Assembly: GCA_001898645.1 (NCBI GenBank) | Contig: MKUQ01000011.1 | Span: forward strand, 1-64,000 | Length of the DNA: 64,000 nt | From: Burkholderiales bacterium 70-64 | GTDB taxonomy: Bacteria > Pseudomonadota > Gammaproteobacteria > Burkholderiales > Burkholderiaceae_E | Direction of reading: 5' to 3' | Shown: positions 36,676 through 57,003 of the stretch, one piece after another | How positions within the stretch are numbered: position 1 is the stretch's first letter | How the letters are laid out: each line of letters starts with the position of its first letter | Notes under the pieces: generated by a model | What the model was told of the DNA's origin: nothing | Seen by the model: the letters and a program-made list of their open reading frames with translations, nothing else | Database searches by the model: none | Made by a program: the position numbers and the translations under genes

Positions 36676-37869
36676 ATGAGCCAGTCATCCGGGCGCCCCT
36701 CCTTCCATTGCGACGATCCCCTCCTGCTCGACGAGCAACTGAGCGCCGAGGAGCGCCAGGTGCGCGATGCCGCGCGCGCCTATTGCCAGGAGCGGCTGGC
36801 GCCGCGCGTGCTCGAGGCGTTCCGGCACGAGCGCACCGATGCGGCCATCTTTCGCGAGATGGGGGCGCTCGGCCTGCTCGGCGCGACCATCCCCGAGCAG
36901 TACGGCGGGGCGGGCCTGAACTACGTCTGCTACGGCCTGGTGGCGCGCGAGGTCGAGCGCGTCGATTCCGGCTATCGCTCGATGATGAGCGTGCAGAGCT
37001 CCCTGGTCATGGTGCCGATCAATGCGTTCGGTACCGAGGCGCAGAAGCTCAAATATCTTCCGGCGCTGGCCAGCGGCGAGTCGATCGGCTGCTTCGGCCT
37101 GACCGAGCCCAACCACGGCTCCGATCCCGGCAGCATGGTCACCCGCGCGAAGAAGGTGGCGGGCGGCTATCGGCTCACCGGCGCGAAGACCTGGATCACC
37201 AACGCCCCGATCGCCGATGTCTTCGTCATCTGGGCCAAGGACGACGAAGGCGCCATCCGCGGCTTCCTGCTGGAGAAAGGCGCCAAGGGGCTGTCGGCTC
37301 CGGCGATCCACGGCAAGGTCGGCCTGCGCGCCTCGATCACCGGCGAGATCGTGATGGACGAGGTGTTCTGCCCGGAGGAGAATGCCTTTCCGGAAGTGCG
37401 CGGGCTGCGCGGGCCGTTCACCTGCCTGAACAGCGCGCGCTACGGCATCGCCTGGGGCGCGCTGGGCGCCGCCGAAGACTGCTTCCATCGCGCGCGCCAG
37501 TACGTGCTCGATCGCAAACAGTTCGGCCGGCCGCTGGCGGCCAACCAGCTGATCCAGAAGAAGCTCGCCGACATGCTCACCGAGATCGCGCTCGGCCTGC
37601 AGGGGTGCCTGCGGCTCGGCCGCATGAAGGACGAAGGCGTGGCGGCAGTGGAGCTGACCAGCATCATGAAGCGCAACTCGTGCGGCAAGTCGCTCGAGAT
37701 CGCCCGCACGGCGCGCGACATGCTGGGCGGCAACGGCATCAGCGACGAGTTCGGCGTGGCGCGCCACCTGGTGAACCTGGAGGTGGTCAATACCTACGAG
37801 GGCACCCACGACGTGCACGCGCTCATCCTCGGGCGCGCGATCACCGGCATCGCGGCGTTCTCGAACTGA
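36676..37869 (+). CDS. gcdH: Glutaryl-CoA dehydrogenase
   Basis: A 397-residue acyl-CoA dehydrogenase that oxidatively decarboxylates glutaryl-CoA to crotonyl-CoA and CO2, passing electrons to ETF. Features: [15 protein letters not shown], the catalytic-Glu block [20 protein letters not shown] and the N-terminal [13 protein letters not shown] typical of GcdH. No clear ribosome site precedes the ATG. Gene order gcdH, CoA-transferase, aldehyde dehydrogenase is the reverse of the order in which the enzymes would act on glutarate semialdehyde. In nicotinate breakdown it would be the last pathway-specific step before crotonyl-CoA. Confidence 0.94.
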
Positions 37870-37877
37870 AGCCGGCG

Positions 37878-39167
37878 ATGTCCGACGCGACCGCCTCCGC
37901 TTCCGATGCTCCCGGCGCATTGCCCGGCGACGGCGCACCCGGCCGTGCGCCGCCGCTGGCCGGCGTGCGCGTGCTCGATCTCTCGCGGGTGCTGGCCGGG
38001 CCATGGGCAGGCCAGCTGCTGGCCGACCTCGGCGCCGACGTGATCAAGGTCGAGCGCCCGGGCGCGGGCGACGACACCCGCAGCTGGGGGCCGCCCTACC
38101 TGAAGGACGCCGCCGGCCGCGACACCGGCGAGGCGGCCTACTTCCTGTGCGCCAACCGCAACAAGCGCTCGGTCACCATCGACATGGCGCAGCCCGAAGG
38201 GCAGTCGCTGGTGCGCCGCCTGGCACAGCAGGCCGACGTGCTGCTGGAGAACTTCAAGCTCGGCGGCCTGAAGCAGTACGGGCTGGACTACGCCAGCCTG
38301 AGCGCATCGAATCCGCGCCTGGTGTACTGCTCGATCACCGGCTTCGGCCAGGACGGGCCGTACGCGCCGCGCGCCGGCTACGATTTCCTCATCCAGGGCA
38401 TGGGCGGCCTGATGAGCGTCACCGGGCGCGCCGACGGCGAGGAAGGCGCCGGCCCGCAGAAGGTGGGGGTGGCGCTCACCGACATCATGACCGGCCTGTA
38501 CGCCACCATCGCCGTGCAGGCCGCGCTCGCCGAGCGCGAGCGCTCGGGCCGCGGCCAGCACATCGACCTGGCGCTGCTCGACGTGCAGATCGCCTGCCTC
38601 GCCAACCAGGCCTCCAACTACCTGGCCGGGGGCGTGGTGCCGCGGCGCATGGGCAACGCGCATCCGAACATCGTGCCCTACCAGGACTTCCCGACCGCCG
38701 ACGGCGACATGATCCTCGCCATCGGCAACGACGGCCAGTTCGCCCGTTTCTGCGCCATCGCCGGCCATCCCGAATGGGCCGAGGATGCGCGCTTCGCCAC
38801 CAACCCGCAGCGGGTGGCCCATCGTGCCGTGCTCATCCCGCTGCTGCGCCAGGCGACCGTGACGCGCACCACCCGCGAGTGGATCGCCGCGCTCGAATCG
38901 GCCGGCGTGCCCTGCGGGCCGATCAACCGGCTCGACGAGGTGTTCGCCGACCCGCAGGTGCGCGCGCGCGGTCTGCGCATCGAGCTGCCGCACCCGCAGG
39001 CCGGCACGGTGCCGCTGGTGGCCAACCCGATGCGGCTGTCGGCCTCGCCCGTCGTCTATCGCAACGCGCCGCCGCAGCTCGGCCAGCACACCGACGAGGT
39101 GCTGCACGAATGGCTGGGGCTCGACGAGGCCGCAATCGCCGCGCTGCGACGCGGGAATGTCGTTTGA
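37878..39167 (+). CDS. CaiB/BaiF-type CoA-transferase, probably for glutarate
   Basis: A 429-residue family III CoA-transferase. After a Pro/Ala-rich N-terminus, residues from about 28 on show the family block GVRVLDLSRVLAGPWAGQLL, GADVIKVERP, and the catalytic-Asp region HIDLALLDVQ. It starts eight bases after gcdH, so it most likely makes glutaryl-CoA from glutarate with succinyl-CoA as donor, as the SUGCT-like family does. ATG 37878 chosen; no strong ribosome site, suggesting coupling to gcdH. Confidence 0.87.
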   Translation: MSDATASASDAPGALPGDGAPGRAPPLAGVRVLDLSRVLAGPWAGQLLADLGADVIKVERPGAGDDTRSWGPPYLKDAAGRDTGEAAYFLCANRNKRSVTIDMAQPEGQSLVRRLAQQADVLLENFKLGGLKQYGLDYASLSASNPRLVYCSITGFGQDGPYAPRAGYDFLIQGMGGLMSVTGRADGEEGAGPQKVGVALTDIMTGLYATIAVQAALAERERSGRGQHIDLALLDVQIACLANQASNYLAGGVVPRRMGNAHPNIVPYQDFPTADGDMILAIGNDGQFARFCAIAGHPEWAEDARFATNPQRVAHRAVLIPLLRQATVTRTTREWIAALESAGVPCGPINRLDEVFADPQVRARGLRIELPHPQAGTVPLVANPMRLSASPVVYRNAPPQLGQHTDEVLHEWLGLDEAAIAALRRGNVV

Positions 39168-39177
39168 GGAGCACAGC

Positions 39178-40608
39178 ATGCATCGCAACTACATCGCCGG
39201 CGAGTGGGTCGAGGGGACCGACGTCCGCCGCAACGTCAATCCCTCGAATCTCGACGACCTGGTCGGCGAGTACGCCCAGGCCGATGCGGCGCAGACCGCC
39301 GTCGCCGTCGAGGCTGCCCGCGCGGCCGCCGCCGCATGGGCGCGCGGCCCGCTGCAGGCGCGCGCCGACGCGCTCGATCGCATCGGCGCCGAGCTGCTGG
39401 CACGCAAGGAGGAGCTCGGCGACCTGCTCGCCCGCGAGGAGGGCAAGACGCTGCCCGAGGCGATCGGCGAGGTGGCGCGCGCCGGCCAGATCTTCCGCTT
39501 CTTCGCCGGCGAGGTGGTGCGTATGGGCGGCGAGCACCTGCCTTCGGTGCGTCCCGGCGTCGAGGTCGACATCACCCGCGAGCCGGTCGGCGTGGTGGGC
39601 ATCATCACGCCCTGGAACTTCCCGATCGCGATCCCGGCCTGGAAGATCGCCCCGGCCCTGGCCTACGGCAACTGCGTGGTGTTCAAGCCGGCCGACCTGG
39701 TGCCCGGCTCGGCCTGGGCGCTGGCCGAGGTCATCAGCCGGGCCGGGCTGCCGGCGGGCGTGTTCAACCTGGTCATGGGGCCGGGCGGACGCGTCGGCCA
39801 GACGCTCATCGGGCACAAGGGGGTCGATGCGATCAGCTTCACCGGCTCGGTGAGCACCGGGCGGCGCGTGCTGGCGGGCGCGGCCGAGCGCTTCGCCAAG
39901 GTGCAGCTCGAGATGGGCGGCAAGAATCCGCTGGTGGTGCTCGACGACGCCGATCTCGCGCGCGCGGTCGAGTGCGCGGTGCAGGGCGCCTACTATTCCA
40001 CCGGCCAGCGCTGCACCGCCTCGAGCCGCTTCATCGTCCAGAAGGGCATCCTGCCGCGCTTCGTGGAGGCGGTCTCGCAGCGCCTGCAGCGCCTGAAGGT
40101 GGACGACGCGCGCGCCGCCGGCACCGACATCGGCCCGGTGGTCGACGACAGCCAGCTCGAGCAGGACCAGGCCTACATCGAGATCGGCCGCCAGGAAGGG
40201 GCGCGGCTGGTCACCGGCGGCGCGCGCCTCGAGCGCGCCACCCCGGGCTACTACTTCGAGCCGGCGCTGTTCACCGAGACCGGGCCGGGCATGCGCATCG
40301 CGCGCGAGGAGATCTTCGGCCCGGTGGCCTGCGTGATCGCCGCTGACGACCTCGATCACGCGCTGGCCCTGGCCAACGACACCGAGTTCGGCCTGTCGGC
40401 CGGCATCTGCACGAGCTCGCTGGCCGCGGCGACCCGCTTCAAGCGCGAGGCGCAGGCCGGCATGGTGATGGTCAACGTGCCCACCGCGGGCGTCGATTAT
40501 CACGTGCCCTTCGGCGGGCGCAAGGGCTCGAGCTACGGGCCGCGCGAGCAGGGCCGCTACGCGGCCGAGTTCTTCACCACGGTGAAGACGGCGTATACGG
40601 CGGCCTGA
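39178..40608 (+). CDS. Aldehyde dehydrogenase (alpha-ketoglutarate/glutarate-semialdehyde type)
   Basis: A 476-residue NAD(P)-dependent aldehyde dehydrogenase. The catalytic Cys is in TGQRCTASS and the general-base Glu in LEMGGKNP. The C-terminal block VNVPTAGVDYHVPFGGRKGS is characteristic of alpha-ketoglutaric semialdehyde dehydrogenases. GAGGAG before ATG 39178 decides the start over an in-frame ATG at 39157. Next to gcdH and the CoA-transferase, the most sensible substrate is glutarate semialdehyde, the product expected from decarboxylated 2-formylglutarate. Ten bases after the CoA-transferase. Confidence 0.88.
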   Translation: MHRNYIAGEWVEGTDVRRNVNPSNLDDLVGEYAQADAAQTAVAVEAARAAAAAWARGPLQARADALDRIGAELLARKEELGDLLAREEGKTLPEAIGEVARAGQIFRFFAGEVVRMGGEHLPSVRPGVEVDITREPVGVVGIITPWNFPIAIPAWKIAPALAYGNCVVFKPADLVPGSAWALAEVISRAGLPAGVFNLVMGPGGRVGQTLIGHKGVDAISFTGSVSTGRRVLAGAAERFAKVQLEMGGKNPLVVLDDADLARAVECAVQGAYYSTGQRCTASSRFIVQKGILPRFVEAVSQRLQRLKVDDARAAGTDIGPVVDDSQLEQDQAYIEIGRQEGARLVTGGARLERATPGYYFEPALFTETGPGMRIAREEIFGPVACVIAADDLDHALALANDTEFGLSAGICTSSLAAATRFKREAQAGMVMVNVPTAGVDYHVPFGGRKGSSYGPREQGRYAAEFFTTVKTAYTAA

Positions 40609-40620
40609 GGCGGCGAACCC

Positions 40621-40660: not shown

Positions 40661-43600
40661 TCACGGTTGCGACGGCGAGGCGCGTACCCGCGCCACCGCC
40701 TGCTCCAGGTCGCGCCACGGCGGCTTGCCGGGCGCGTAGCGCTGGCGCATCCAGGCCGCCAGCTCCGCCACCTGGCGGTCGTCGAGCGCCTGAGCGTAGG
40801 CCGGCATGAAGCCGATGGCGCGCGTCGGGGGCGCCTGGATGCCTTCGAGGATGACCCGCACGAGGTTGTCGGGGCGTTCCGCGTGCAGGTTGCTGTTGAG
40901 CGCCAGCGGCGTGTTCACGCCCAGCAGGTGCGGCCCGTCGCCGTCGTGGTGGCAGGCGCCGCAGGCGACCTCGAACATGCGCGAGGCTGTGCCCGGCGCG
41001 GCGCGCTCCGAGGTAAGGGCCGAGGTGCGTGCCTCGAGGACCGCGGCCTGGGCCGCCGCCGCGGCCTCGGTCTCGGAAACCGGCGGGTTGAACGAGGCCA
41101 GGTAGTGCGCCATCGCGCGCACGTCCTCGTCGGGCAGCGCCGCGAGCTCCGCGACCACCGGCGCCATCGGGCCCGAAGCCACGCCGTGCAGCGGGCTGTG
41201 GCCGTGGCGCAGGTAGCGATAGAACGCCTCCTCGGTCCACGGCACCGGCGCACGGCTGGCCGAGGTGAGCGCCGGCGCTTCCCAGCCCTTGACCATGGCG
41301 CCGCCGAGGTAGGCCGTGCCGCTGCGCTCGGCGCCCAGGACGTTGCGCTCGGTGTGGCAGGCGCTGCAATGGCCCAGCCCGTTGACCAGGTACTCGCCGC
41401 GGTTCCATTGCACCGAGCGTGACGGATCGGCTGCGGTCACCGCGCCGGGCTGCAGGAACAGCGCGTTCCACAGGGCCATCAGCGGGCGCATGCCGTACGG
41501 GAATGCGAGCTGCGTCGGGGCCGTCTCGCGGCGTACCGGCGGCTGGCTCATCAGGTACGCATAGAGCGCGGTCAGGTCTTCGTCGCTGGTACGCGTGTAC
41601 GAGGTGTACGGGAACGCCGGATAGAGGTGCCGGCCGTCGCGCGAGATGCCTTCGCGCATCGCGCGCTGGAATGCGGCCAGCGACCAGGCGCCGATGCCGG
41701 TCTCGACGTCGGGCGTGAGGTTGGTGGTGTGGATGGTGCCGAAGGGTGTTTCCATGGCGAGGCCGCCGGCGTTCGGCGGACCGCCAGGCGCGGTGTGGCA
41801 GCCCACGCAGTTGCCGACCGCCGCGAGCTGGCGGCCGCGCTCGAGGGTGGCAGCGGTGTACATCGAGATGTCGGCGCGCGCGATCGGCGCGATCGCCGCG
41901 CGCCAGCCGAGCGCGCCCGCGGTGAAGCCGGCTACGCCGGCGAGCAGCGCGCCGGCGGCGGCCCACCAGCGCTTGCCGCGCGGCCAGCGCGCAGATGCCG
42001 GCGGCGCGTGCGCAGCCGCTGCCCGGCCTTCGTCGCGTCGCGGCTGCGGCGCGCCGGCAGGCGCGGGCAGCGGGTTGAGCGCCGCGCGCACCACCTCGGC
42101 CGTGAACGGCGGCTGCCGGAAGCGGATGCCGGTGGCATCGAAGATGGCGTTGGCGATGGCCGCCGTGCCGGGCACCGATGCGGACTCGCCGACGCCGAGC
42201 GGCGGCTCGCCGGGACGCGGCATCGTCACCACCTCGATGACCGGCACCTCGCGGAAGCTGAGGATGGGGTAGCTGCCCCATTCGCGGCCCGAGACGACGC
42301 TGGTGGCCGGATCGATGCGCACGCGCTCCCTGAGCGCGCGGCTGGTGGTCTGGATCACGTTGCCCTGGACCTGGTGGCGCACGCCGGCCGGATTGATGGT
42401 CAGCCCTGCGTCCTGGCCGACCACCACGCGCTTGACGTGCACCTCGCCGGTGTTGCGGTCGACGTCGACGTCGGCGATCCAGGCCGACCAGGCGGCGGCC
42501 ACGCCCGGCCACTGCCCGTGCACGTAGCGCGCGTAGGCGACACCGCGCCCGTGCAGCACGTCGCCGGTGGCGCCCATCTGCTGCGGTCCGTCGTGCGCGA
42601 CCCAGCCGGCGCGCTCGGCGGTGGCGCGCAGCAGCTCGCTGGCGCGCGGATCCTGCAGGTGGCGCAGCCTGAACTCGAGCGGATCGGCGTGCGCCGCGGT
42701 GGCCAGCTCGTCGACGAACGACTCGTGCGCGAACGAATTGGGCAGCGCCGAGACGCCGCGCAGCCACGATGCGCGCAGGATCGGCGCCATGTCGTGGATG
42801 GTGACCCGCAGGTTGGGCACCGAGTACGGCGGGCGCGCGGTGCGGTCGCCCATCTCGAACGAGCGCGCCACCGGATCGACGGTGCGCGTCAGCAGCAGCG
42901 CCAGCGTGGGCGCGCCGTTGGACGGATAGGAGACCGAGAAGTCGTAGGCGCCGAAGGCGCCGCCGGCATCGAGCCCGCCGCGCACCTGCATCCACTGCGC
43001 GGTGCCCTTGGGCTCCCACAGGTGCTCCTGCTCGCGGCTCAGCTGCACCCGCACCGGCGCGCCGACCGCGCGCGCGAGCAGCGCGGCGTCGGCGGCCACG
43101 TCGTCGGCACAGTTGCGCCCGTAGCAGCCGGCGGCCTCCATGCGGATCACCTCGACCGCCGGATCGGCGACGCCGAGCAGCCTGGCGATGTCGGCGCGCA
43201 GCACGTGCGGGTTCTGCGTGCCCGCCCAGACCGTGAGCACGTGGGGCCGGGCCTCCTCGCCGTGCCACTCGGCCACCGCGCACGACGGCCCGATCGAGGC
43301 GTGCATCTGGTAGGGCCACACGTAGGTGCGCGACATCGGCGCGGCGGCGCCGGCCAGCGCCGCCTCGACGTCGCCTTCGTCGACCACCTTGCGCGTGCTG
43401 GACGGATTGGCGCGCAGCGCGTTCTCGAGATCCTCGAGCGGAGGCAGCCCCGGCCACGCCTTCCAGCGCACGCGCAGCGCGGCGGCGGCCTGCTCGGCGT
43501 GCTCCTCGCGCTCGGCCACCACGCCGACGAAATCGCGGATCACCACCACCGCACGGATGCCGGGGATGTGGGCGATCGATGCTTCGTCGACCGACTCGAG

Positions 43601-44353
43601 CGTGTTGCCGATGAACTCGCCGTGGTCGGCCCCCGCGTACGGCGGGCGCACCACGCGGCCGTGCAGCATGCCGGGCAGGCGCAGGTCGTGCACGAAGGCG
43701 GTTTCGCCGAAGGCCTTGGCGGGGATGTCGACGCGCGGCACGGGCTGGCCGACGATGCGGTATTCGGCGCCCGGCTTGAGCCGGACCTGCGTGTCCAGGC
43801 GCAGCTCGTAGCGTCGGCCGCGCAGCAGTGCGCCGTAGCCGATGCGGCGGCCGGCTTCGGGGCCGTCGCTGCACTCGACCATGCCGTCGCGCACCGTGAG
43901 CGATCCGGGCGCGGCGCCGAGGACCTCGGCGGCGCGCTCGACGAGGAAGGCGCGCGCCTGGGCCGCCGCCTGCCGCAGCGGCACCGCAGTGACCTGGATC
44001 GAGGCGCTGGCGATGGTCAGCCCCTGGTTGGGCGCGCGCGCCGTGTCGCCCAGCACCATGTGCACCCGCTCGAAGGGCACGTCGAGCTCCTCGGCGACGA
44101 TCTGGGCCAGCGCGGTGCGCAGGCCCGTGCCGAGGTCGACGTGGCCGTTCAGGGCGATGACCTGGCCGTCGTCCCAAACCGAGAGCAGGACCTCGGGGCC
44201 TTCGGCGGGGTCGGCCGGCACGCTCGGCGGCTGGCCGCGCGCCGGGGGTGGGGGCGGGGGAGGCTCGCGGGTGACGACCAGCACGCCGTCGGCGGCGAGG
44301 AAATCGGCGCGGGTGCGCAACTGCTCCGGGCGGCTCACGGCGGATTCGTTCAC
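40661..44353 (-). CDS. nicB: Nicotinate dehydrogenase large subunit: Mo-hydroxylase fused to three-haem cytochrome c
   Basis: A 1230-residue fusion. Residues about 45-760 are a xanthine-oxidase-family molybdenum subunit (GHVDLGTGLRTALAQIVAEE, the QNPHVLRADIA block, GVGESASVPGTAAIANAI near its end). A single membrane segment lies at about 796-817. The C-terminal part has three haem c sites, CVGCH (849), CSACH (996) and CGACH (1131). This layout is that of NicB of Pseudomonas nicotinate dehydrogenase, which 6-hydroxylates nicotinate and passes electrons to cytochromes. A run of seven prolines near residue 31-37 is a linker oddity. With the 2Fe-2S subunit six bases upstream. Isoquinoline oxidoreductase is a family alternative, but the neighbouring ring reductase and enamidase favour nicotinate. 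Confidence 0.87.
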   Translation of the reverse strand: MNESAVSRPEQLRTRADFLAADGVLVVTREPPPPPPPARGQPPSVPADPAEGPEVLLSVWDDGQVIALNGHVDLGTGLRTALAQIVAEELDVPFERVHMVLGDTARAPNQGLTIASASIQVTAVPLRQAAAQARAFLVERAAEVLGAAPGSLTVRDGMVECSDGPEAGRRIGYGALLRGRRYELRLDTQVRLKPGAEYRIVGQPVPRVDIPAKAFGETAFVHDLRLPGMLHGRVVRPPYAGADHGEFIGNTLESVDEASIAHIPGIRAVVVIRDFVGVVAEREEHAEQAAAALRVRWKAWPGLPPLEDLENALRANPSSTRKVVDEGDVEAALAGAAAPMSRTYVWPYQMHASIGPSCAVAEWHGEEARPHVLTVWAGTQNPHVLRADIARLLGVADPAVEVIRMEAAGCYGRNCADDVAADAALLARAVGAPVRVQLSREQEHLWEPKGTAQWMQVRGGLDAGGAFGAYDFSVSYPSNGAPTLALLLTRTVDPVARSFEMGDRTARPPYSVPNLRVTIHDMAPILRASWLRGVSALPNSFAHESFVDELATAAHADPLEFRLRHLQDPRASELLRATAERAGWVAHDGPQQMGATGDVLHGRGVAYARYVHGQWPGVAAAWSAWIADVDVDRNTGEVHVKRVVVGQDAGLTINPAGVRHQVQGNVIQTTSRALRERVRIDPATSVVSGREWGSYPILSFREVPVIEVVTMPRPGEPPLGVGESASVPGTAAIANAIFDATGIRFRQPPFTAEVVRAALNPLPAPAGAPQPRRDEGRAAAAHAPPASARWPRGKRWWAAAGALLAGVAGFTAGALGWRAAIAPIARADISMYTAATLERGRQLAAVGNCVGCHTAPGGPPNAGGLAMETPFGTIHTTNLTPDVETGIGAWSLAAFQRAMREGISRDGRHLYPAFPYTSYTRTSDEDLTALYAYLMSQPPVRRETAPTQLAFPYGMRPLMALWNALFLQPGAVTAADPSRSVQWNRGEYLVNGLGHCSACHTERNVLGAERSGTAYLGGAMVKGWEAPALTSASRAPVPWTEEAFYRYLRHGHSPLHGVASGPMAPVVAELAALPDEDVRAMAHYLASFNPPVSETEAAAAAQAAVLEARTSALTSERAAPGTASRMFEVACGACHHDGDGPHLLGVNTPLALNSNLHAERPDNLVRVILEGIQAPPTRAIGFMPAYAQALDDRQVAELAAWMRQRYAPGKPPWRDLEQAVARVRASPSQP

Positions 44354-44359
44354 GCCTTC

Positions 44360-48916: not shown

Positions 48917-50137
48917 TCAGTCGGCGGAGCGCAGCTTCTTCACTTCCGCATCCGAGGGCTGGAACTTCGCGCCGTCGAGATAGCGGAAATCCACCATCAG
49001 CCCTTTCCCGTTCTCGTATTTCGTGCGGCCCACGTAGGCCCCCATGGTCGACTGGTGATCCTGGGGCCGGTAGCTGATCTTGCCGAACGGGGTGTCGACC
49101 TGCAGGCCCTCGAAGGCCGCGATGAGCTTCGCGGTATCGGTGCTGCCCGCCTTGGCGATGCCGGCGGCCAGCGACTTGATCGCGCTGTAGCCGACCACCG
49201 AGCCCAGGCGCGGGTAGTCATTGAACTTCGCCTGGTAGGCCTTCAGGAACGCCTCGTGCTCGGGCGTCTTGATGGCGTACCAGGGGTAGCCGGTGACCAC
49301 CCAGCCGGTCGGGGTTTCGGCCTTCAGGGGATCGATGTATTCCGGTTCGCCGGTGAGCAGGCTCACCACCTCGCGCCCCTGGAACAGGCCGCGCGTGTTG
49401 CCCTCGCGCACGAACTTGGCCAGGTCGGCGGCGAACAGCACGTTGAAGATGGCGTCGGGCTTGGCGTCGGCGAGCGCCTGCACGACGCTGCCGGCATCGA
49501 CCCGGCCCAGCGGCGGCGCCTGCTCGGCCACGAACTCCACGTCGGGCTGCGCTGCCTTGAGCAGCTGCTTGAAGGTGGCCGCCGCCGACTGGCCGTACTC
49601 GTAGTTGGGGAAGACCAGCGCCCAGCGCTTCTTCTTCATCGCCGCCGCCTCGGGCACCAGCATCGCGACCTGCATGTAGGTCGACGGGCGCAGGCGGAAC
49701 GTGTAGCGGTTGCCGTCGGCCCAGACGATCTTGTCGGTCAGCGGCTCGCTGGCGAGATAGAAGAACTTCTTCTGCTTGGCGAAATCGGTCAGCGCCAGCC
49801 CGATGTTGGAGAGGAACGCTCCGGTGAGCACGTCGACCTTCTCGCGCGAGACCAGCTCCTCGGCCACGCGCACGGCGTCGCCCGGGTTGCCGTTGTCGTC
49901 GCGGCTGACCAGCTCCACCTTCTTGCCGTTGATGCCGCCGGCCTTGTTGATCTCCTCGACGGCGAGATCCATGCCCTTCTTGTAGGGCTCGAGGAACAGG
50001 GGCTGCGCCTTGTAGCTGTTCACCTCTCCGATCTTGATCACGCCCTGGGCGTGCGCCGGCGCCGCCAGCGCGGTCGCGCCCAGGGCCGCCAGCGCGGCCA
50101 GGCCGGTGCGCAGGGACTGCTTCGTTGTTGCCATCAT
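48917..50137 (-). CDS. Liv-type periplasmic binding protein
   Basis: A 406-residue type-1 binding protein with a Sec signal ending AHA|Q, then IKIGEVNSYKAQP and the typical LVSRDDNGNPGDAVRVAEEL block. Start ATG 50137 has GGAGA five bases upstream; a second ATG follows directly. Position between pathway genes and the permease makes it the likely nicotinate- or hydroxynicotinate-recognition component. Related Liv binding proteins bind many aromatic acids. Confidence 0.88.
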   Translation of the reverse strand: MMATTKQSLRTGLAALAALGATALAAPAHAQGVIKIGEVNSYKAQPLFLEPYKKGMDLAVEEINKAGGINGKKVELVSRDDNGNPGDAVRVAEELVSREKVDVLTGAFLSNIGLALTDFAKQKKFFYLASEPLTDKIVWADGNRYTFRLRPSTYMQVAMLVPEAAAMKKKRWALVFPNYEYGQSAAATFKQLLKAAQPDVEFVAEQAPPLGRVDAGSVVQALADAKPDAIFNVLFAADLAKFVREGNTRGLFQGREVVSLLTGEPEYIDPLKAETPTGWVVTGYPWYAIKTPEHEAFLKAYQAKFNDYPRLGSVVGYSAIKSLAAGIAKAGSTDTAKLIAAFEGLQVDTPFGKISYRPQDHQSTMGAYVGRTKYENGKGLMVDFRYLDGAKFQPSDAEVKKLRSAD

Positions 50138-50191
50138 GTGTCTCCGGTTGGCGATGGACGTTGGGGGAGGGGCGGAGGCCGGCACCCGCGC

Positions 50192-50776
50192 TCAGCGCAG
50201 GCCGTCCTCGCCCTTGATCTCGCTGGCCTTCAGGCCGCCGACGCGCGCCAGCGGGCGCCCGCTGTCGGTCACGGCGATGGCCACCACGATTTCGTTGGCG
50301 CGCGGCGCATCGCTCACGCGGGCTTCGATGGCATCGAAATGGCTGCGCACGAAGGCGGCATCCTTGTGGCCCAGCGGCACGTCGATGGCCGTGCCCAGGC
50401 CGCCGCGCTTCTTGGCCGAAGGCACCAGCGCAGCGCCTTTCTCCACCGCCGCGCGCAGCGTGGCCCCCATCTTGGGGTGCAGGATGGCCGCGGCGTGCTC
50501 GAGCTCGCCGGCCTCGCCGACGATGGCGGCCTTGCCGTAGCTCTGCGCCTGCGCGGGCGCGATGCCGAGCGCCTCCACGCAGCGGCGCCCGAGCAGCCCG
50601 CCGAGCTCCTCGCCGATGGCGACCAGCTCGTCGAGGTTCTCGACGTAGCGGCCGGCGCACGGGTTCTCGATCACCGCCATCGCCAGGGCGCGGCGCGTGG
50701 GCGGCTCGACGGCGTGGTTCATTTCGCGGAGGGTTTCGTCGACTTGCACGATCAGCTTGCGGATCCGGGCGGCCAT
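50192..50776 (-). CDS. PF06684 'amino acid synthesis' family protein, copy 1
   Basis: A 194-residue soluble protein of the PF06684 family, whose name does not reflect a proven function. Blocks: ENPCAGRYVENLDELV, SYGKAAIVGEAGELEHAAA, KKRGGLGTAIDVPLGHKDAA, and EIVVAIAVTDSGRPLARVGGL. The second copy at 50820 shares this layout (NPFARRYV, YGKGAIVGSAGELEHG, KKVGAPGTTLDVPLTHINAS). Both lie between the ring reductase and the importer. They may be a heteromeric enzyme for a step lacking an assigned enzyme, such as 2-formylglutarate decarboxylation; that is speculation. Confidence 0.78.
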   Translation of the reverse strand: MAARIRKLIVQVDETLREMNHAVEPPTRRALAMAVIENPCAGRYVENLDELVAIGEELGGLLGRRCVEALGIAPAQAQSYGKAAIVGEAGELEHAAAILHPKMGATLRAAVEKGAALVPSAKKRGGLGTAIDVPLGHKDAAFVRSHFDAIEARVSDAPRANEIVVAIAVTDSGRPLARVGGLKASEIKGEDGLR

Positions 50777-50819: not shown

Positions 50820-51461
50820 TCAGCGCAGGCCGTCCCATTGGGCGATGTCGGCGGCCTTCAGCCCGCCCACGCGGGCGTGCACCCGCGCGCCGGTGCTCAT
50901 CGCCAGGATGAAGACCAGCTCGTCGGGCGCGGGCGCACCGGGCACGCGCACCTCGACCGCGTCGAAGTGGCTGCGCACGTAGCTGGCGTTGATGTGGGTC
51001 AGCGGCACGTCGAGGGTGGTGCCGGGCGCGCCGACCTTCTTGGTCGACGGAACGATCGCCAATGCATTGCCGGGCTGGCCGGTCTTCTTCTCGCCCTCGC
51101 CGCGGGCGTAGGCGGCGCGGTCGCCCTTCCAGCCGAGCAGCTCGCGCATCGCATAGCCGCCCGGTACGTGCCACAGCGCGCCGTGCTCGAGCTCGCCGGC
51201 GCTGCCGACGATCGCGCCCTTGCCGTAGGCTTCGATGCGCTCGACCGGCACGTCCATCGAGGCACGCAGGCGGTGCGCCATGTCCAGGCCGACGGGGTTG
51301 AGCGCCTCCATCATCGGCAGGATGTCGGCCACGTAGCGCCTGGCGAACGGATTGGTCAGCACCGCGGCGATCCAGCCGCGGCGCGGCGCCACTGCGGCGA
51401 CCGGCCCGAATTCGTGGTGGATGTCCTCGACCTGGGACAGGATGCGCCGGATTTCGATCAT
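50820..51461 (-). CDS. PF06684 'amino acid synthesis' family protein, copy 2
   Basis: A 213-residue paralogue of the neighbouring protein, 43 bases upstream of it. I chose ATG 51461 (GGGAG upstream); the longer open frame above it overlaps the UPF0280 gene and lacks coding character. It is about 20 residues longer than copy 1 because of an insert around GWKGDRAAYARGEGEKKTG. The GELEH and DVPL blocks shared by both copies hold the best candidates for active-site residues. Function unknown. Confidence 0.75.
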   Translation of the reverse strand: MIEIRRILSQVEDIHHEFGPVAAVAPRRGWIAAVLTNPFARRYVADILPMMEALNPVGLDMAHRLRASMDVPVERIEAYGKGAIVGSAGELEHGALWHVPGGYAMRELLGWKGDRAAYARGEGEKKTGQPGNALAIVPSTKKVGAPGTTLDVPLTHINASYVRSHFDAVEVRVPGAPAPDELVFILAMSTGARVHARVGGLKAADIAQWDGLR

Positions 51462-51481: not shown

Positions 51482-52390
51482 TCAGTGTGCGTGCGCCGCC
51501 ACGCCGGTGCGCGGCAGCGTGCCCGCGGCGGCGGCGCCGTGCGCGCCGGCCAGCGCCATCATCCCCTGGCACACCAGTGCGCAGGACCAGATCAGGCCGT
51601 GTTCGTGCAGCGTCTGCGCGCGCTCGCGGCCCGAGCTCAGCGCGCGCTGCACCGTCTCGCGATCGAGGCGCGGCACGTCGACCGTGACCGGCAGGCTGCC
51701 GAGGTCGCTGTCGTCCTTCAGCTCGCAGGCCGGCCGCCGCACGATGCGAGCATCGTCGACGTCGACCGCGTTGGCGATCACGGTGGCCGCCGCATCGGCC
51801 TCGGCCGCGCTGCGCGCGAGCACGGTCACGCTGTCGGCGATGCCCAGCGAGAAGCTGCGTCCGCGCCAGCCGCTGGTCGCCACGCCGCGCACCGGTAGCT
51901 CGTGGCCGACGTCGAACCAGCCGTCGGTGCGGATCCCGTCGCGCAGCTGGGCGGCGTCGAGCCGCCCGATGTCGGCGTACAGGCCGATGCGCACCGAGCG
52001 CTCCGGGGCCAGGTGCAGCGCGATGTCGCCGCCGTTGTTGATCCAGGCGCGATCGACGCCCGGCCGCGCGTAGTGCCCGATCAGTTCCTGGGCCACGGCG
52101 CCCGCTACCGCAGCCATCGGGGTGATGAAGCCCGCGCGATAGGGGCGACAGGCCGACCACATGCGCCGCGCCACCGCGCCGCGCAGTGGACAGGGGTCCG
52201 CGCCCACCGGCCTGCGCAGGACCGCCAGCTCGCCGACCAGCTCCTCGAGGATGGTCTCGAAGCGTTCCCAGGCGGCGGCGTGCGAGGCCTGCAGCGCATC
52301 GGGCCGGCCGTCGGCGCCGATGACGATGTCGATCGGACCGTGCTGGAAGTGCCAGCGGCCATCGGGCAGCAGGGCGCGTTGCGCGGGCAT
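51482..52390 (-). CDS. UPF0280 / ApbE-like protein
   Basis: A 302-residue protein of the UPF0280 family, distantly related in fold to ApbE flavin transferases. Recognisable blocks: ARRMWSACRPYRAGFITPMAAVAGAVAQELI, INNGGDIALHL and GIRTDGW..VRGVATSGWRGRSFSLGIAD. The N-N-G-G-D and T-S-G-x-R-G-R-S segments resemble ApbE active-site motifs. It starts ten bases after the ring-reductase stop, so it may install or handle that enzyme's flavin. No signal peptide, unlike periplasmic ApbE. Confidence 0.8.
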   Translation of the reverse strand: MPAQRALLPDGRWHFQHGPIDIVIGADGRPDALQASHAAAWERFETILEELVGELAVLRRPVGADPCPLRGAVARRMWSACRPYRAGFITPMAAVAGAVAQELIGHYARPGVDRAWINNGGDIALHLAPERSVRIGLYADIGRLDAAQLRDGIRTDGWFDVGHELPVRGVATSGWRGRSFSLGIADSVTVLARSAAEADAAATVIANAVDVDDARIVRRPACELKDDSDLGSLPVTVDVPRLDRETVQRALSSGRERAQTLHEHGLIWSCALVCQGMMALAGAHGAAAAGTLPRTGVAAHAH

Positions 52391-52400: not shown

Positions 52401-54029
52401 TCAGCCGATCACCGGCGGGCGGCCCAGCGGCCAGGGATTGCCGGCCGGGGCCTGGAGCCAGCGGCGCGCCACGGGCGCGCCGTCGTTGTGCCAGGCGCCG
52501 TGGCGCAGCACCTCCTCGAGCGGGCGCACGTGGTCGACGTGCCCGCCCAGGGCGCGGAAGTCGTCCAGGCGCATGCTGAACTCGATCGGCGCCACCAGGG
52601 CCGGCGTCGGTACCGTGCCGAAGCTGTGGTCGGGCATGCGCATGACGTCGGTCATCACGGTGATGCCGCCGCCGGGCCAGACATAGGCCGGCGCGCCGCC
52701 GCAGGTGACGTTGACCAGCGCCTGCTTGATGGAGCGGGTGAGCAGCACCGGGTTCTCGGTCACCCCGGCGCGCAGGCTGCCGCCGGCGCCGCCGAGGAAG
52801 AGCACCGTGCACAGCGACGGCTCGCAGTTCTCGCCGATGCGCTCGACGATGGCGTGCAGCGCCTGCGGCATGGCCTCCTCGCGCGGCGTGAGGGTCTCGT
52901 CGAGCACGTACCACGCGGCATGCTCGCCGGTGGTGGAGGTCATCAGCAGGCGCAGCCCCGGCCACGCCACCGCGCCGTCCCAGCCTTCGATGATCGACAG
53001 CGGGTCGGCGATGTCGGTGCCGCCCCAGCCGGTGCCCGGATTGGCCACCTGGAAGTAGCGCCCCGGCGTCGACTTGCGCCCGCGCACCTTGATGCCCGAG
53101 GGCCGCATGTCCAGGCAGCGCCCCGCCTGGTGCTCGGTGAGCACGCCGGTGATGTGGTCGTCGACCACGACCACCTCGTCGGCGAGCCCGTAGAGCTGGC
53201 GCGCGAAGATGCCGACCGTGGCCGATCCGCAGCCCACGCGCATGCGCTGCTCCTCGGCGCCGTTGACGATGGGCGCGCGCCCGGCCTGCACCACGATCTG
53301 CGAGCCGCCGTCGATGGTGAGCTCCACCGCCGCCTTGTTGCCCAGCGCCTGCATCACCTCGAGCGTGACGCGGCCTTCCTTCTTGCTGCCGCCGGTGAGA
53401 TGGTGCACGCCGCCCAGCGAGAGCATCTGCGAGCCGTATTCGGCGGTGGTCACGTGGCCGACCACTTCGCCTTTACATCGCACGTTCGCCTGCTCGGGGC
53501 CGAGGTAGCGGTCGGTATCGATCTTGAGCTTGAAGCTGCAGTAGCTGAAGATGCCCTCGGTCACCACGGTGACCATGTCGACGCCGTCGGCTTTCGATCC
53601 CACGATGAAGGGCGCCGGCTTGTAGTCGGGGTAGGTGGTCGAGGAGCCGATCCCGGTGACGAACACCTGGTCGGCGTGCAGCAGGTCGCCCGACCAGGCC
53701 GCCCCCGCCTCGGCGGCCGCCGGCGTCTCGCCCTCCGGCGCCGGCAGGGCCGCACGCTCGGCGAACGCCACCAGCTCGGGCTCGCCCTCGGCGATCTGGC
53801 GGCGCAGCATGACCACCGGGTCGACGCGCACCAGCGTGCCCTCGTGGTTGGCGTAGCGGTCGCAGGCGCCGGTGCGCCCCGGGGCGATCTGGCACAGCAC
53901 CGGGCATGCGTTGCACTCGATCTTGCCGGCCGCCATGCGCTCGTTGCGCGGGCGCGCCCGCTCGAGGATCTGTGGCAGGGGCGGCTCGTCGATCCCCGGA
54001 AGGCCGTCTGTCCTGGTGTGCTCGGTCAT
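52401..54029 (-). CDS. hnr: 6-Hydroxynicotinate reductase
   Basis: A 542-residue iron-sulfur flavoprotein-type enzyme. An N-terminal [4Fe-4S] motif is C39-x2-C42-x3-C46 with C56. The remainder carries VTEGIFSYCSFKLKID, GGVHHLTGGSKKEGR and MRVGCGSATVGIFARQL. It resembles 6-hydroxynicotinate reductase of Eubacterium barkeri, which uses reduced ferredoxin to form 1,4,5,6-tetrahydro-6-oxonicotinate. First gene of a long minus-strand operon, with a plausible promoter at 54136-54164 and divergent from an Fpr-type reductase that could supply electrons. Recognition is from memory of the family; a database match would settle it. Confidence 0.82.
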   Translation of the reverse strand: MTEHTRTDGLPGIDEPPLPQILERARPRNERMAAGKIECNACPVLCQIAPGRTGACDRYANHEGTLVRVDPVVMLRRQIAEGEPELVAFAERAALPAPEGETPAAAEAGAAWSGDLLHADQVFVTGIGSSTTYPDYKPAPFIVGSKADGVDMVTVVTEGIFSYCSFKLKIDTDRYLGPEQANVRCKGEVVGHVTTAEYGSQMLSLGGVHHLTGGSKKEGRVTLEVMQALGNKAAVELTIDGGSQIVVQAGRAPIVNGAEEQRMRVGCGSATVGIFARQLYGLADEVVVVDDHITGVLTEHQAGRCLDMRPSGIKVRGRKSTPGRYFQVANPGTGWGGTDIADPLSIIEGWDGAVAWPGLRLLMTSTTGEHAAWYVLDETLTPREEAMPQALHAIVERIGENCEPSLCTVLFLGGAGGSLRAGVTENPVLLTRSIKQALVNVTCGGAPAYVWPGGGITVMTDVMRMPDHSFGTVPTPALVAPIEFSMRLDDFRALGGHVDHVRPLEEVLRHGAWHNDGAPVARRWLQAPAGNPWPLGRPPVIG

Positions 54030-54082
54030 GGAGATTTCACCTCGTTGGCGGCGTGCCGGCGACCCTTGTGGGCGGGCACGAC

Positions 54083-54125
54083 TTGATGTAGGATTCGCCG
54101 AACGTTGATGTTGTGTTTGCTACAT
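54083..54125. promoter_or_regulatory. Direct and inverted repeats in the hnr leader
   Basis: TTGATGT occurs at 54083-54089 and again at 54105-54111, 22 bases apart (two helical turns). ATGTAG (54086-54091) and CTACAT (54120-54125) form a perfect inverted repeat across the same span. Lying just downstream of the predicted hnr start point, this suits a repressor site for the nearby TetR or MarR protein. Confidence 0.4.
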
Positions 54126-54135
54126 GAAAAGCCGC

Positions 54136-54164: not shown

Positions 54165-54229
54165 GGGGTTTCACGCCGCCGCCGGTGCAAAATGAGTCGC
54201 CGGCCCCAACAGCCAACCTCCATCCGTCC

Positions 54230-55003
54230 ATGAGCGCCTTCAACGAAGAACGTGTGCTGAGCGTCCATCACTGGACCGACCGCCTGTTCAGCTTCACGAC
54301 CACGCGCGACGCCGCGCTGCGGTTCAGCAACGGCCATTTCACGATGATCGGTCTGCGGGTCGACGGCAAGCCGCTGCTTCGGGCCTACAGCATCGCGAGC
54401 GCCAATTACGAGGATCATCTCGAGTTCCTCAGCATCAAGGTCGACGAGGGTCCGCTCACCTCGCGCCTGCAGCACATCCGGGTCGGCGATCCGATCATCG
54501 TCGGTCGCAAGCCCACGGGTACGCTGGTCGTCGACTATCTGCTGCCCGGCAAGCGGCTGTACCTCCTCGCCACCGGCACCGGGCTGGCACCTTTCATGAG
54601 CATTGTGCGCGATCCGGCGACCTACGAAAAGTTCGAGCACATCGTGCTGGTGCACGGCGTGCGCAAGGTCGACGAGCTGGCCTACCACGACCTGCTGGTG
54701 GAGCACCTGCCGTCGCACGAGTTCCTCGGCGACATCGTGTCGTCGCAGATGCACTACTATCCGACGGTGACCCGCGAGGAATACCGCAACATGGGGCGCA
54801 TCACCGACCTGATCGAAAGCGGCAAGCTGTGTTCCGACTTGTGTATGCCCGCGCTCGATCCCGCCGAAGATCGCGTGATGATCTGCGGCAGTCCCGCCAT
54901 GCTGCGCGACCTCAAGCACCTGCTCGAGCAGCGCGGCTTCGCCGAGGGCAACACCTCGGTGCCGGGCCATTACGTCATCGAGCGCGCGTTCGCCGAGCAG
55001 TGA
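54230..55003 (+). CDS. Ferredoxin-NADP+ reductase (Fpr type)
   Basis: A 257-residue FAD enzyme of the bacterial Fpr subclass. FAD-binding blocks: LLRAYSIASANYEDHLEF (R-x-Y-S-x-A) and KPTGTLVVDYL. NADP-binding blocks: LLATGTGLAPFMSI and MICGSPAMLRDLKHLL. The C-terminus is GHYVIERAFAEQ. ATG 54230 chosen; an in-frame GTG at 54185 has no ribosome site. It is divergent from the ferredoxin-dependent reductase gene, so it probably sends electrons from NADPH via ferredoxin to that enzyme. Upstream of the TetR and enamidase genes on the same strand. Confidence 0.88.
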   Translation: MSAFNEERVLSVHHWTDRLFSFTTTRDAALRFSNGHFTMIGLRVDGKPLLRAYSIASANYEDHLEFLSIKVDEGPLTSRLQHIRVGDPIIVGRKPTGTLVVDYLLPGKRLYLLATGTGLAPFMSIVRDPATYEKFEHIVLVHGVRKVDELAYHDLLVEHLPSHEFLGDIVSSQMHYYPTVTREEYRNMGRITDLIESGKLCSDLCMPALDPAEDRVMICGSPAMLRDLKHLLEQRGFAEGNTSVPGHYVIERAFAEQ

Positions 55004-55047
55004 CCGCTGCCGTCCTCGCCCCGGGACTACGTCAGGAGGCTACACCG

Positions 55048-55770
55048 ATGTCGAACAGCACCGCGGCGCGTGCCGTTGCGAGCAGGAGCGGCCCGCGGCG
55101 CAAGCCCGGGGTGCGCGAACGGGCGGCGCAGGCGACCCGCGAGAGCCTGCTGCGCGCGGCGATCAAGGTCTTCGCCCGGCATGGCCTGCACGGCGGCAGC
55201 GTCGAGAAGATCGCCAAGGCAGCCCGCTCCTACGACCGGATGATCTACTACTACTTCGGCAGCAAGGAGGAGCTGTTCGTCGCGGCCCTGGAGGAGATCT
55301 ACCGCCGCTTCAACGAAGCCGAGGCCAGGCTCGATCTCGATCCGGCGCGGCCCGTCGAGTCGCTGCGGGCGGTGGTGCACTTCGTGCTCGACTACTACCG
55401 CCGCAACCCCGAGTTCGTCGCGCTGCTCAACAGCGAGAACCTGCACCGCGGCAGGCACATCGGGAAGTCGCTGCGCGCGCGCGAGTACTCCTCGCCCGCC
55501 GTCGGCATCCTCGACGCGCTGCTGCGCAGCGGCGTCTCGCAGGGCCTGTTCCGGCCCGACGTGTCGGCGCGCGACCTGTACCTGCTGATCGCGGCCACCG
55601 GCTACTTCTACCAGTCCAACCGCTTCACGCTCTCGGCTTTCCTGGGCGAGGATCTCGAGGCCCCCGAAGCGATCGAGCACTGGGAGTCATTCGCCCAGGA
55701 GGCGGTCCTGCGCACGGTGCTCGTCGCCGCGCCGCCGCCCGACGGCGCGGCCGCCGTCGCGGCCGTCTGA
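55048..55770 (+). CDS. TetR-family transcriptional regulator
   Basis: A 240-residue regulator. Helix-turn-helix at residues about 28-75 (LLRAAIKVFARHGLHGGSVEKIAKAA, YDRMIYYYFGSKEELF), followed by a ligand-binding domain of the TetR_C type. AGGAGG precedes ATG 55048. In Pseudomonas putida a TetR-like NicS co-regulates nic genes, so a comparable role is likely; the repeats at 54083-54125 are its best candidate site. Lies between fpr (44 bases) and the enamidase (42 bases). Confidence 0.9.
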   Translation: MSNSTAARAVASRSGPRRKPGVRERAAQATRESLLRAAIKVFARHGLHGGSVEKIAKAARSYDRMIYYYFGSKEELFVAALEEIYRRFNEAEARLDLDPARPVESLRAVVHFVLDYYRRNPEFVALLNSENLHRGRHIGKSLRAREYSSPAVGILDALLRSGVSQGLFRPDVSARDLYLLIAATGYFYQSNRFTLSAFLGEDLEAPEAIEHWESFAQEAVLRTVLVAAPPPDGAAAVAAV

Positions 55771-55812
55771 CCGACCCCCGGCGCATCCATCCGACCCACG
55801 AGGAGCGAACCC

Positions 55813-57003
55813 ATGGCACAGACAGTCGAACAGGCCCGTTCGGGCAAGGTGGTCATTCGCAACATCGGCCTGCTGCTGTCGGGCGACATCGACCGGCCGG
55901 TGCTCGATGCCGACACCGTGGTCGTGCGCGACGGCCGGATCACGGCCTTCGGCAAGGAGGCCGACTGCGACGTCGCGCAGCCCGACGTGCTGATCGACGC
56001 GCGGCGCACCTGCGTCTGCCCGGGCCTGATCGACAGCCACGTCCACCCGGTGTTCGGCGACTGGACGCCGCGCCAGGGCCAGCTCGGCTGGATCGACTCG
56101 ACCCTGCACGGCGGCGTGACCACGATGATCTCGGCCGGGGAGGTGCACCTGCCCGGACGCCCGAAGGACATCGTCGGGCTCAAGGCGCTGGCGATCACTG
56201 CCCAGCGCGCTTTCGACAACTTCCGCCCGGGCGGGATGAAGGTGCTCGCCGGCGCCCCGGTGCTCGAGCAGGGCATGGTGGAAGAAGACTTCCGCGAGCT
56301 CGCCCAGGCAGGCGTGAAACTGCTGGGCGAGGTCGGCCTGGGCTCGGTCAAGGCGGGCGAGGAGGCCCGGCGCATGGTCGCCTGGGCGCGCAAGTACGGC
56401 ATCCAGAGCACCATCCATACTGGAGGGCCGTCGATCCCCGGTTCGGGCCTGATCGACAAGGACGTGGTGCTCGAGGCCGACGCCGACGTCATCGGGCACA
56501 TCAACGGCGGCCATACCGCTTTGCCCGAGGCGCACGTGTGCGAGCTGTGCGAGAAGTCGTCGCGCGCCATCGAGATCGTGCACAACGGCAACGAGAAGGT
56601 CGCCATCGCCGCGGCCCGCGCCGCGCTGCAGCTGAAGTGCCCGCACCGCGTGATCCTCGGCACCGACGGCCCCGCCGGCTCGGGCGTGCAGCCGCTCGGC
56701 ATCCTGCGCATGATCGCGCTGCTCTCCAGCGTCGGCGGCATCCCCGCCGAATCGGTGTTCTGCTTCGCCACCGGCAACACGGCCCGCCTGCGCGGGCTCG
56801 ACTGCGGCCTGGTGGAGGTCGGGCGCGCCGCCGACTTCGTCTTCATGGACCGCGCGCAGCACACGGCCGGCCGCGGCCTGCTCGAGAGCGTGCAGCTCGG
56901 CGACATCCCCGGCGTCGGCATGGTGATGATCGACGGCATCGTGCGCTGCGGGCGCAGCCGCAACACGCCGCCGGCGACCGAGATCCCGCTCGTGGTCCAC
57001 TGA
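55813..57003 (+). CDS. ena: Enamidase (6-oxotetrahydronicotinate hydrolase)
   Basis: A 396-residue amidohydrolase that should hydrolyse 1,4,5,6-tetrahydro-6-oxonicotinate to 2-formylglutarate and ammonia. Metal-site candidates follow the Eubacterium barkeri enamidase pattern: H76 and H78 (DSHVHP), E173 (LGEVGLG), H202 (IHTGG), H229 (GHINGG) and the Asp of GTDGPAGSG. Close family marks are LHGGVTTMISAGE, PGRPKD and the C-terminal SRNTPPA. Downstream of the TetR gene and in the same direction as fpr. The resemblance is strong enough that a generic imidazolonepropionase or dihydroorotase call would be less apt. Confidence 0.87.
   Translation: MAQTVEQARSGKVVIRNIGLLLSGDIDRPVLDADTVVVRDGRITAFGKEADCDVAQPDVLIDARRTCVCPGLIDSHVHPVFGDWTPRQGQLGWIDSTLHGGVTTMISAGEVHLPGRPKDIVGLKALAITAQRAFDNFRPGGMKVLAGAPVLEQGMVEEDFRELAQAGVKLLGEVGLGSVKAGEEARRMVAWARKYGIQSTIHTGGPSIPGSGLIDKDVVLEADADVIGHINGGHTALPEAHVCELCEKSSRAIEIVHNGNEKVAIAAARAALQLKCPHRVILGTDGPAGSGVQPLGILRMIALLSSVGGIPAESVFCFATGNTARLRGLDCGLVEVGRAADFVFMDRAQHTAGRGLLESVQLGDIPGVGMVMIDGIVRCGRSRNTPPATEIPLVVH

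Follow-up and report, generated by a model that had tools for sequence, protein, structure and literature searches.

A probable locus for reductive nicotinate degradation in a Burkholderiales bacterium, and a candidate role for the UPF0280 protein beside its 6-hydroxynicotinate reductase

The reductive breakdown of nicotinate is known from the fermentation carried out by Eubacterium barkeri, which employs a four-subunit nicotinate hydroxylase, 6-hydroxynicotinate reductase (Hnr) and an enamidase, and which takes 2-formylglutarate onward through 2-hydroxymethylglutarate and B12 steps. The NicAB hydroxylase of Pseudomonas putida consists of a [2Fe-2S] subunit and a molybdopterin–cytochrome c subunit. 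A gene cluster described for Azorhizobium caulinodans, Bradyrhizobium and SG-6C carries, in the available part of its published account (PMC3511419), genes for the first three reductive steps including Hnr, a putative nicotinate ABC transporter and two conserved proteins of unknown function, and leads into a glutarate route. Here, a locus with the same first-three-step genes is described from Burkholderiales bacterium 70-64, in a stretch of 64,000 nucleotides (assembly GCA_001898645.1, contig MKUQ01000011.1, positions 1 to 64,000; hereafter the window). Relative to the published cluster, the window also holds fpr, tetR and pncB, with fdxA and the genes for glutarate lying inside the same 25 kb. 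The pathway is already known, and by itself the locus contributes one further host and a more complete gene list; the interest lies in its unassigned parts, which comparison with relatives has made testable.

Judged by its sequence, the locus is a well-supported member of this published kind of cluster, and it very probably encodes an aerobic form of the reductive pathway. The reductive route was put forward in the original prediction, whose open reading frames were confirmed at their positions and whose reductase and enamidase fall in the expected families. The firm assignments are the enamidase and glutaryl-CoA dehydrogenase (GCDH), each by alignment to solved enzymes so named: the former can be aligned over its whole length to that of E. 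barkeri (2vun, E 7e-107), and the best PDB matches of the latter are glutaryl-CoA dehydrogenases (3gnc, E 2e-218). Nine of the ten best PDB sequences for GCDH bear that name, one of them as 'putative', at 329–728 bits; the tenth is an acyl-CoA dehydrogenase at 573 bits, and the next scores 254. At E ≤ 0.001, Hnr has no match among the families of Pfam and NCBIfam. Its probable identity rests on the annotation of relatives, which are named 6-hydroxynicotinate reductase in 17 of 26 plasmid records (57–78% identity; in the other nine the relative is nameless, a 'hypothetical protein' or unannotated), and on the 42% identity to E. barkeri Hnr given for an SG-6C protein, from the same kind of cluster, in the accessible text of Shettigar 2012 (PMC3511419). 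A Cys-x2-Cys-x3-Cys-x8-10-Cys motif is present in 66 of 69 extracted Hnr frames, the three misses being N-terminally cut calls. Weighing on the other side, the aldehyde dehydrogenase, CoA-transferase and ferredoxin-NADP reductase (Fpr) score under the cut-offs of the curated models that name them, and for this reason the substrates assigned to all three are provisional.

In the proposed route, nicotinate would enter through a branched-chain-type ABC transporter and be converted by a NicAB-type molybdenum hydroxylase to 6-hydroxynicotinate, with electrons passing to cytochrome c. Hnr would then reduce the ring to 1,4,5,6-tetrahydro-6-oxonicotinate, which the enamidase would open and deaminate to 2-formylglutarate. 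The latter would go to glutaryl-CoA here, in contrast to its fate in E. barkeri: it would lose CO2, a step without an assigned gene, and the semialdehyde dehydrogenase, CoA-transferase and GCDH would successively lead to crotonyl-CoA. While the Hnr and enamidase families are common to E. barkeri and the window, the hydroxylase makes the locus a hybrid, because it is of the cytochrome-c-linked two-gene type and not of the four-subunit E. barkeri type. The sequences directly show the protein families, the order of the genes, their conservation and co-occurrence, and the fold of UPF0280; the substrates, the path of the electrons, the loading of flavin and the regulation are deduced from these.

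The gene arrangement around hnr is far from chance. One scan of genome contigs with Hnr returned 71 loci from other genomes, with no clostridium among the record titles and with many loci ending early at contig ends. UPF0280 is present in 69 of them, the two AA_synth (DUF1185) proteins AAS1 and AAS2 in 61 and 46, the enamidase gene (ena) in 59 and fpr in 53; the two loci without UPF0280 (L057, L059) stop at hnr or shortly past it. In these 71 loci and in 31 further genomes, hnr has largely the same genes around it. Of 398 genomes drawn from the phylum, 32, belonging to 16 genera, contained Hnr, and the UPF0280 model NF003322 scored above its cut-off in the same 32 and in none of the 366 others. 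The sampled genomes are related and Fisher values are thus not honest probabilities; the genus count, 16 of 16, is the safer figure for the co-occurrence of Hnr and UPF0280. The gap between the hnr and UPF0280 matches ranges from 14 to 495 bp across the 32 genomes (in G016 the nearer Hnr piece was used). Short NF003322 matches below the cut-off occur in G293 and G373. The UPF0280 match of G386 contains one internal stop, and the Hnr of G016 (L169) lies in two different frames, as two adjacent matches; either may reflect sequencing error or decay.

What does UPF0280 do beside Hnr? Its predicted model has the whole fold of the ApbE flavin transferases, with a predicted local distance difference test (pLDDT) score of 91.6. 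It shares with them the GGD and ATSG motifs, found in 67 of 67 UPF0280 sequences, and an AD-x3-T-like motif (A[DN]-x3-[TS], 65 of 67). The Pfam ApbE family PF02424 is matched by 18 of 19 UPF0280 members (best E 7.7e-5), and the window protein scores 13.8 bits, below the cut-off of 25.6. These proteins would most likely load flavin onto Hnr. Two points count against such a role. Unlike ApbE, UPF0280 lacks the HxxDPxTG segment, which is gapped in the profile alignment (DPxTG in 0 of 67), and the ApbE target motif D-x-x-[ST]-G-A-[ST] occurs in none of 69 Hnr sequences. E. barkeri Hnr reportedly holds covalent flavin (Alhapel 2006). A further difference from ApbE is that no lipoprotein-like start was seen in 19 UPF0280 N-termini. 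Hnr has a GSAT stretch (GCGSATVG, around residue 271), which was considered as a site of ApbE-type flavinylation and rejected: the alignment shows T, A or V at the residue in question, and the full motif is absent from all 69 sequences.

The missing segment and the missing target motif both favor an alternative in which UPF0280 keeps the ApbE fold without attaching flavin, as a flavin chaperone, a flavin adenine dinucleotide (FAD) hydrolase or a structural partner of Hnr, and we regard this as close to an even prospect. The gapped segment is the one that holds His257, the general base of ApbE in the accessible portion of PMC12052999. However, the same portion reports the H257G change in Vibrio ApbE as decreasing transferase activity and does not state that activity was abolished, and the near-invariant GGD, ATSG and A[DN]-x3-[TS] motifs also speak for a transferase. 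With somewhat less than even confidence, we propose that UPF0280 is a new, cytosolic ApbE branch that has lost the classical catalytic segment and that, in this subgroup, solely attaches or loads the flavin of Hnr, at a site and by a chemistry unlike the threonine phosphoester of ApbE; and that, alongside, about half of the sampled Hnr genomes (14 to 16 of 32) open the reduced ring by an ATP-driven caprolactamase-like enzyme and not by enamidase. To our knowledge, flavin loading would be the first function for any UPF0280 protein, and no paper tying UPF0280 to flavin or Hnr was found in a search that left most subscription papers outside and in which the term UPF0280 occurred in none of the papers. 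A so far unassigned family would thereby obtain a specific and quickly testable job, tied to one unusual flavoenzyme in every sampled Hnr genome.

The second part of this proposal stems from the distribution of ring-opening enzymes. Enamidase at 62% identity or more occurs in 18 of the 398 genomes, all of them Hnr-positive, and the 14 other Hnr genomes all carry a HyuA at least 62% identical to that of L156; two genomes (G123, G194) have both. HyuA of this type was found in 0 of 29 Hnr-negative genomes searched, the next best match being 46% (61 genomes). Some enamidase match at E 0.001 is present in 187 of the 398 genomes, the remainder being weak amidohydrolase matches except in the Hnr-negative G289 and G238, which have a 43% enamidase relative beside an AA_synth gene. 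There the relative directly follows AA_synth (L172, 4080-5838; L173, 5074-6815), and the two perhaps form a pair with another substrate. At the level of loci, 70 of 104 have ena only, 9 hyuA only, none both and 25 neither (the last including L170 and L171, which are not Hnr loci). The hyuA-type clusters include examples on plasmids of Fuscovulum ytuae and Pseudosulfitobacter. Hnr-UPF0280 clusters with a hydantoinase/caprolactamase-type HyuA, several also with HyuB, and without a nearby enamidase were seen at L154, L155, L156, L162, L165, L168, L169, L142, L066, L186 and L187. Most enamidase-free clusters have another, three-part molybdenum hydroxylase with an FAD subunit, and their substrate may therefore differ from nicotinate. 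For HyuA from L156 and L066 and for HyuB from L156, all in clusters outside the window, the best matches are the caprolactamase models CapA and CapB, at 499–505 (HyuA) and 321 (HyuB) bits, far under the cut-offs of 1000. OplAB, of the same caprolactamase/5-oxoprolinase group, opens delta-valerolactam with ATP (PMC11033972, available part), which makes an ATP-driven ring opening plausible. No paper linking hydantoinase-type enzymes to the pathway was found, again with most subscription papers outside the search. Hnr bacteria thus seem split between two unrelated ring openers, one of them probably ATP-driven.

The AA_synth proteins follow this division. The window has two such genes with hnr, whereas the f49 genomes have one; they score 238.8 and 216 bits against PF06684 (cut-off 27), and a midpoint-rooted tree of 61 AA_synth sequences, whose supports were not inspected, separates AAS1 from AAS2. 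All 18 enamidase genomes have AAS1 close to hnr or ena, and of the 14 Hnr genomes that lack enamidase a single one has it close to hnr; additional AA_synth copies at other places in these genomes were left unsorted in the count. In G123 and G194 an AAS2-AAS1 pair stands beside ena, on a contig other than that of hnr. PF06684 is matched in 59 of the 398 genomes, including 31 of the 32 with Hnr; G139 has Hnr and no AA_synth match at all, so that AA_synth is not needed for Hnr itself. AAS1 most likely would serve the enamidase step or its product. Its close PDB relative 2qtp carries no gene name in the PDB listing, and its identity as SPO0826 is concluded from its length of 194 residues together with the paper of the Joint Center for Structural Genomics (JCSG). 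In the available part of that paper (PMC2954203), the neighbors of SPO0826 are four branched-chain-type ABC transporter genes, much like the window, and amino-acid metabolism is proposed as the role of AA_synth. For AAS1, that role is weakened by the association with enamidase genomes. A structural-genomics candidate for amino-acid metabolism is 70% identical to a nicotinate-cluster protein that accompanies enamidase. That AAS1 might open or tautomerize aldehyde-acid products is a guess by analogy with a remark on TgnF in the accessible text of PMC7913881.

The most likely electron route to Hnr is from NADPH through Fpr and the 7Fe ferredoxin FdxA, because fpr is divergent from hnr, in the window as in many relatives, and an FdxA gene lies within 1.2 kb of the hnr start in 12 of 71 loci. 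NADPH would drive Fpr and then FdxA, which would feed Hnr. Two more of 102 checked loci gave other FdxA matches, one partial (L022) and one distant (L153). The window FdxA sits with the glutarate genes, likewise in the closest relative L217. This route is burdened by the 17 kb that separate the window FdxA from hnr and by four further FdxA paralogs in the genome (59–84% identity), in view of which this copy need not be the sole donor. Residues ~164-252 of Hnr show a weak likeness to the C-terminal barrel of glycine-cleavage T-protein (Pfam, 19 of 19 members; low-confidence model).

Passage through glutarate, which the original prediction attributed to Azorhizobium caulinodans, is indeed in print (PMC3511419, available part). 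Its assignment of the window's glutarate block to the pathway held as far as the genes are present and GCDH is firm; the block is linked to the hnr cluster in few relatives. The CoA-transferase was sought in 25 entries, or 24 distinct genomes (G207 and G409 have identical places and were counted once), all with some match at E 1e-80. Only four of the 24 (G398, G399, G418, G417) have a match of 61% identity or more no farther than 15 kb from hnr, a scarcity that tells against the block's membership of the pathway, and all three genes stand together only in G398 (L217). Linkage of the glutarate genes to hnr is consequently local and confined to few lineages. Together with lysR and fdxA, the gcdh-coaT-aldh block might then be an unrelated glutarate or lysine catabolic unit merely adjoining the nicotinate cluster, as the scarcity of linked CoA-transferase genes, the presence of gcdh beside one of them alone and the failure of the aldehyde dehydrogenase and CoA-transferase to exceed the cut-off of any curated model would allow. 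We consider this improbable: the linked pieces vary in order and strand (L217, L218, L220), so that the association looks rebuilt more than once; L220 has aldh, fdxA, hnr, ena and coaT within 10 kb; G411 and G413 carry, 11 kb downstream from hnr, a CoA-transferase of 42% identity; and the published Azorhizobium route itself passes through glutarate. Besides the full set in L217, partial sets occur as coaT and aldh in L218, coaT in L219, and aldh and coaT in L220. In the closest relative, Lautropia sp. SCN 69-89 (L217), the block reads marR-nicA-nicB-aldh-coaT-gcdh-lysR-fdxA, in the order of the window.

The predicted hydroxylase (40661-44896) proved to belong to the molybdenum hydroxylase superfamily, in the form of two cytochrome-c-linked genes for which the curated models name no substrate; a molybdenum hydroxylase is often at the same place in relatives. 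The cytochrome c part of the molybdopterin protein is C-terminal, a layout that we take to be the NicAB type of aerobic pseudomonads. The likeness to P. putida NicAB is one of makeup, drawn without direct sequence comparison, and the downstream genes of the window differ in being reductive and not NicCDEFX, for which the genome was not searched. That the locus degrades some other pyridine, such as a substituted nicotinate or external 6-hydroxynicotinate, with Hnr and enamidase acting on analogues and nicotinate not the natural substrate, is very unlikely. In its favor, the transporter belongs to a general class for branched-chain amino acids or urea, and some Hnr-family clusters combine a three-part molybdenum hydroxylase with no nearby enamidase, so that the Hnr family need not be confined to one substrate. 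Against it, the enamidase is co-linear with 2vun, the nicotinate gene pncB is next door, and SG-6C, described as having a cluster of this kind, uses nicotinate as sole carbon source with 6-hydroxynicotinate as a transient (PMC3511419). According to the same source, the route also takes 6-hydroxynicotinate from the neonicotinoid residue 6-chloronicotinate, and therefore has a bearing on soil clean-up.

The hnr-fpr intergenic region contains a palindrome, ATGTAG-N6-CTACAT, that is present with one mismatch or none in 34 of 47 such regions, with two in 39 and exactly in six; 20 local shuffles gave means of 0.0 (one mismatch) and 0.25 (two). Other spacings from 0 to 12 reach at most 3 of 47 at one mismatch, and at two mismatches N12 reaches 14. 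The palindrome count is inflated by shared descent, yet the arms hold while the six-base spacer varies. The reversed arrangement, CTACAT-N8/N9-ATGTAG, occurs in 13 and 9 of 47 regions at one mismatch, and may mark an overlapping second site. The palindrome is probably where a TetR or MarR repressor acts. A second match in the window, at 57122 with two mismatches, is within chance.

The features are collected in Table 1. Added here to those of the original prediction are fpr, tetR, marR, UPF0280, the two AA_synth genes, the ABC transporter, fdxA and pncB, as well as the conserved palindrome. A minus-strand run from 54029 to 40661 comprises hnr, UPF0280, AAS2, AAS1, the binding protein, the fused permease, two ABC ATPases, marR, the [2Fe-2S] subunit and the molybdopterin–cytochrome c subunit. 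A plus-strand run from 54230 comprises fpr, tetR, ena, pncB and a 2-hydroxyacid dehydrogenase, and another (36676-40608) gcdh, the CoA-transferase and the aldehyde dehydrogenase, preceded on the opposite strand by lysR and fdxA.

Table 1. Features of the nicotinate locus in window coordinates
Feature	Position	Strand	Evidence
FdxA-type 7Fe ferredoxin, candidate electron carrier to Hnr	35186..35509	-	NCBIfam FdxA_Protbact 165.6 bits, cut-off 135
LysR-family regulator	35581..36492	-	Pfam LysR_substrate, HTH_1
Glutaryl-CoA dehydrogenase	36676..37869	+	PDB 3gnc/3eom, 728 bits, query residues 7-395
Family III CoA-transferase (putative glutarate CoA-transferase)	37878..39167	+	Pfam CoA_transf_3; NCBIfam NF052585 (succinate-glutarate CoA-transferase) 562 bits, below cut-off 750
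Aldehyde dehydrogenase (putatively glutarate semialdehyde)	39157..40608	+	Pfam Aldedh 538 bits; NCBIfam 2-oxoglutarate-semialdehyde dehydrogenase 517 bits, below cut-off 770
NicB-like molybdopterin subunit with cytochrome c domains	40661..44353	-	Pfam MoCoBD_1, MoCoBD_2, Cytochrom_C; PDB 8gy3 cytochrome and large subunits, 3hrd nicotinate dehydrogenase weaker
NicA-like [2Fe-2S] subunit	44360..44896	-	Pfam Fer2_2, Fer2
MarR-family regulator	44958..45407	-	NCBIfam MarR-type models, below cut-offs
ABC transporter ATPase (LivF/UrtE type)	45460..46212	-	
ABC transporter ATPase (LivG/UrtD type)	46209..46994	-	
Fused two-domain ABC permease	46991..48889	-	Pfam BPD_transp_2; UrtB-/UrtC-type models on its two halves
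Periplasmic binding protein, candidate nicotinate receptor (putative ligand)	48917..50185	-	Pfam Peripla_BP_6
AAS1, DUF1185/AA_synth, close to SPO0826	50192..50776	-	Pfam AA_synth; 2qtp 278 bits, 133/191 aligned residues identical
AAS2, second AA_synth paralog	50820..51461	-	Pfam AA_synth; 3byq 145 bits
UPF0280, ApbE-fold protein, candidate flavin-loading factor of Hnr	51482..52390	-	NF003322 407 bits, cut-off 290; PDB 2o34 E 2e-5; model
Hnr, probable 6-hydroxynicotinate reductase	52401..54029	-	Annotation of relatives; Cys motif
Palindrome ATGTAG-N6-CTACAT (1 mismatch), candidate operator	54108..54125	.	hnr-fpr intergenic conservation
Ferredoxin-NADP reductase (Fpr), putative	54230..55003	+	NCBIfam NF008178 154.5 bits, below cut-off 390; so annotated in a relative
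TetR-family regulator	55048..55770	+	NCBIfam RutR and related models, below cut-offs; so annotated in a relative
Enamidase	55813..57003	+	PDB 2vun E 7.1e-107, residues 11-390 to 2-381
Nicotinate phosphoribosyltransferase PncB (salvage, neighbor)	57074..58249	+	NCBIfam TIGR01514 459 bits, cut-off 270

Four long minus-strand frames (54026-54970, 55027-55680, 57026-58108, 58207-59508) lie opposite fpr, tetR, pncB and the 2-hydroxyacid dehydrogenase and match no Pfam family, and are therefore taken as shadows, not genes. The salvage gene pncB stands beside the enamidase gene in the closest relative L002 as well, so that breakdown and salvage of one vitamin adjoin. Elsewhere in the window, a molybdopterin oxidoreductase with a 4Fe-4S partner subunit (10287-13870) represents a second molybdenum enzyme, and a putative cyclase gene (PF04199), followed by a 714-residue TPP (thiamine pyrophosphate)-dependent enzyme and preceded by an FAD oxidoreductase, seems to form a catabolic unit of its own (24966-27927). 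A second ApbE match, at G000:C33:129362-130045, consists of two pieces in one 504-residue open frame, and an intact ApbE is encoded on C35.

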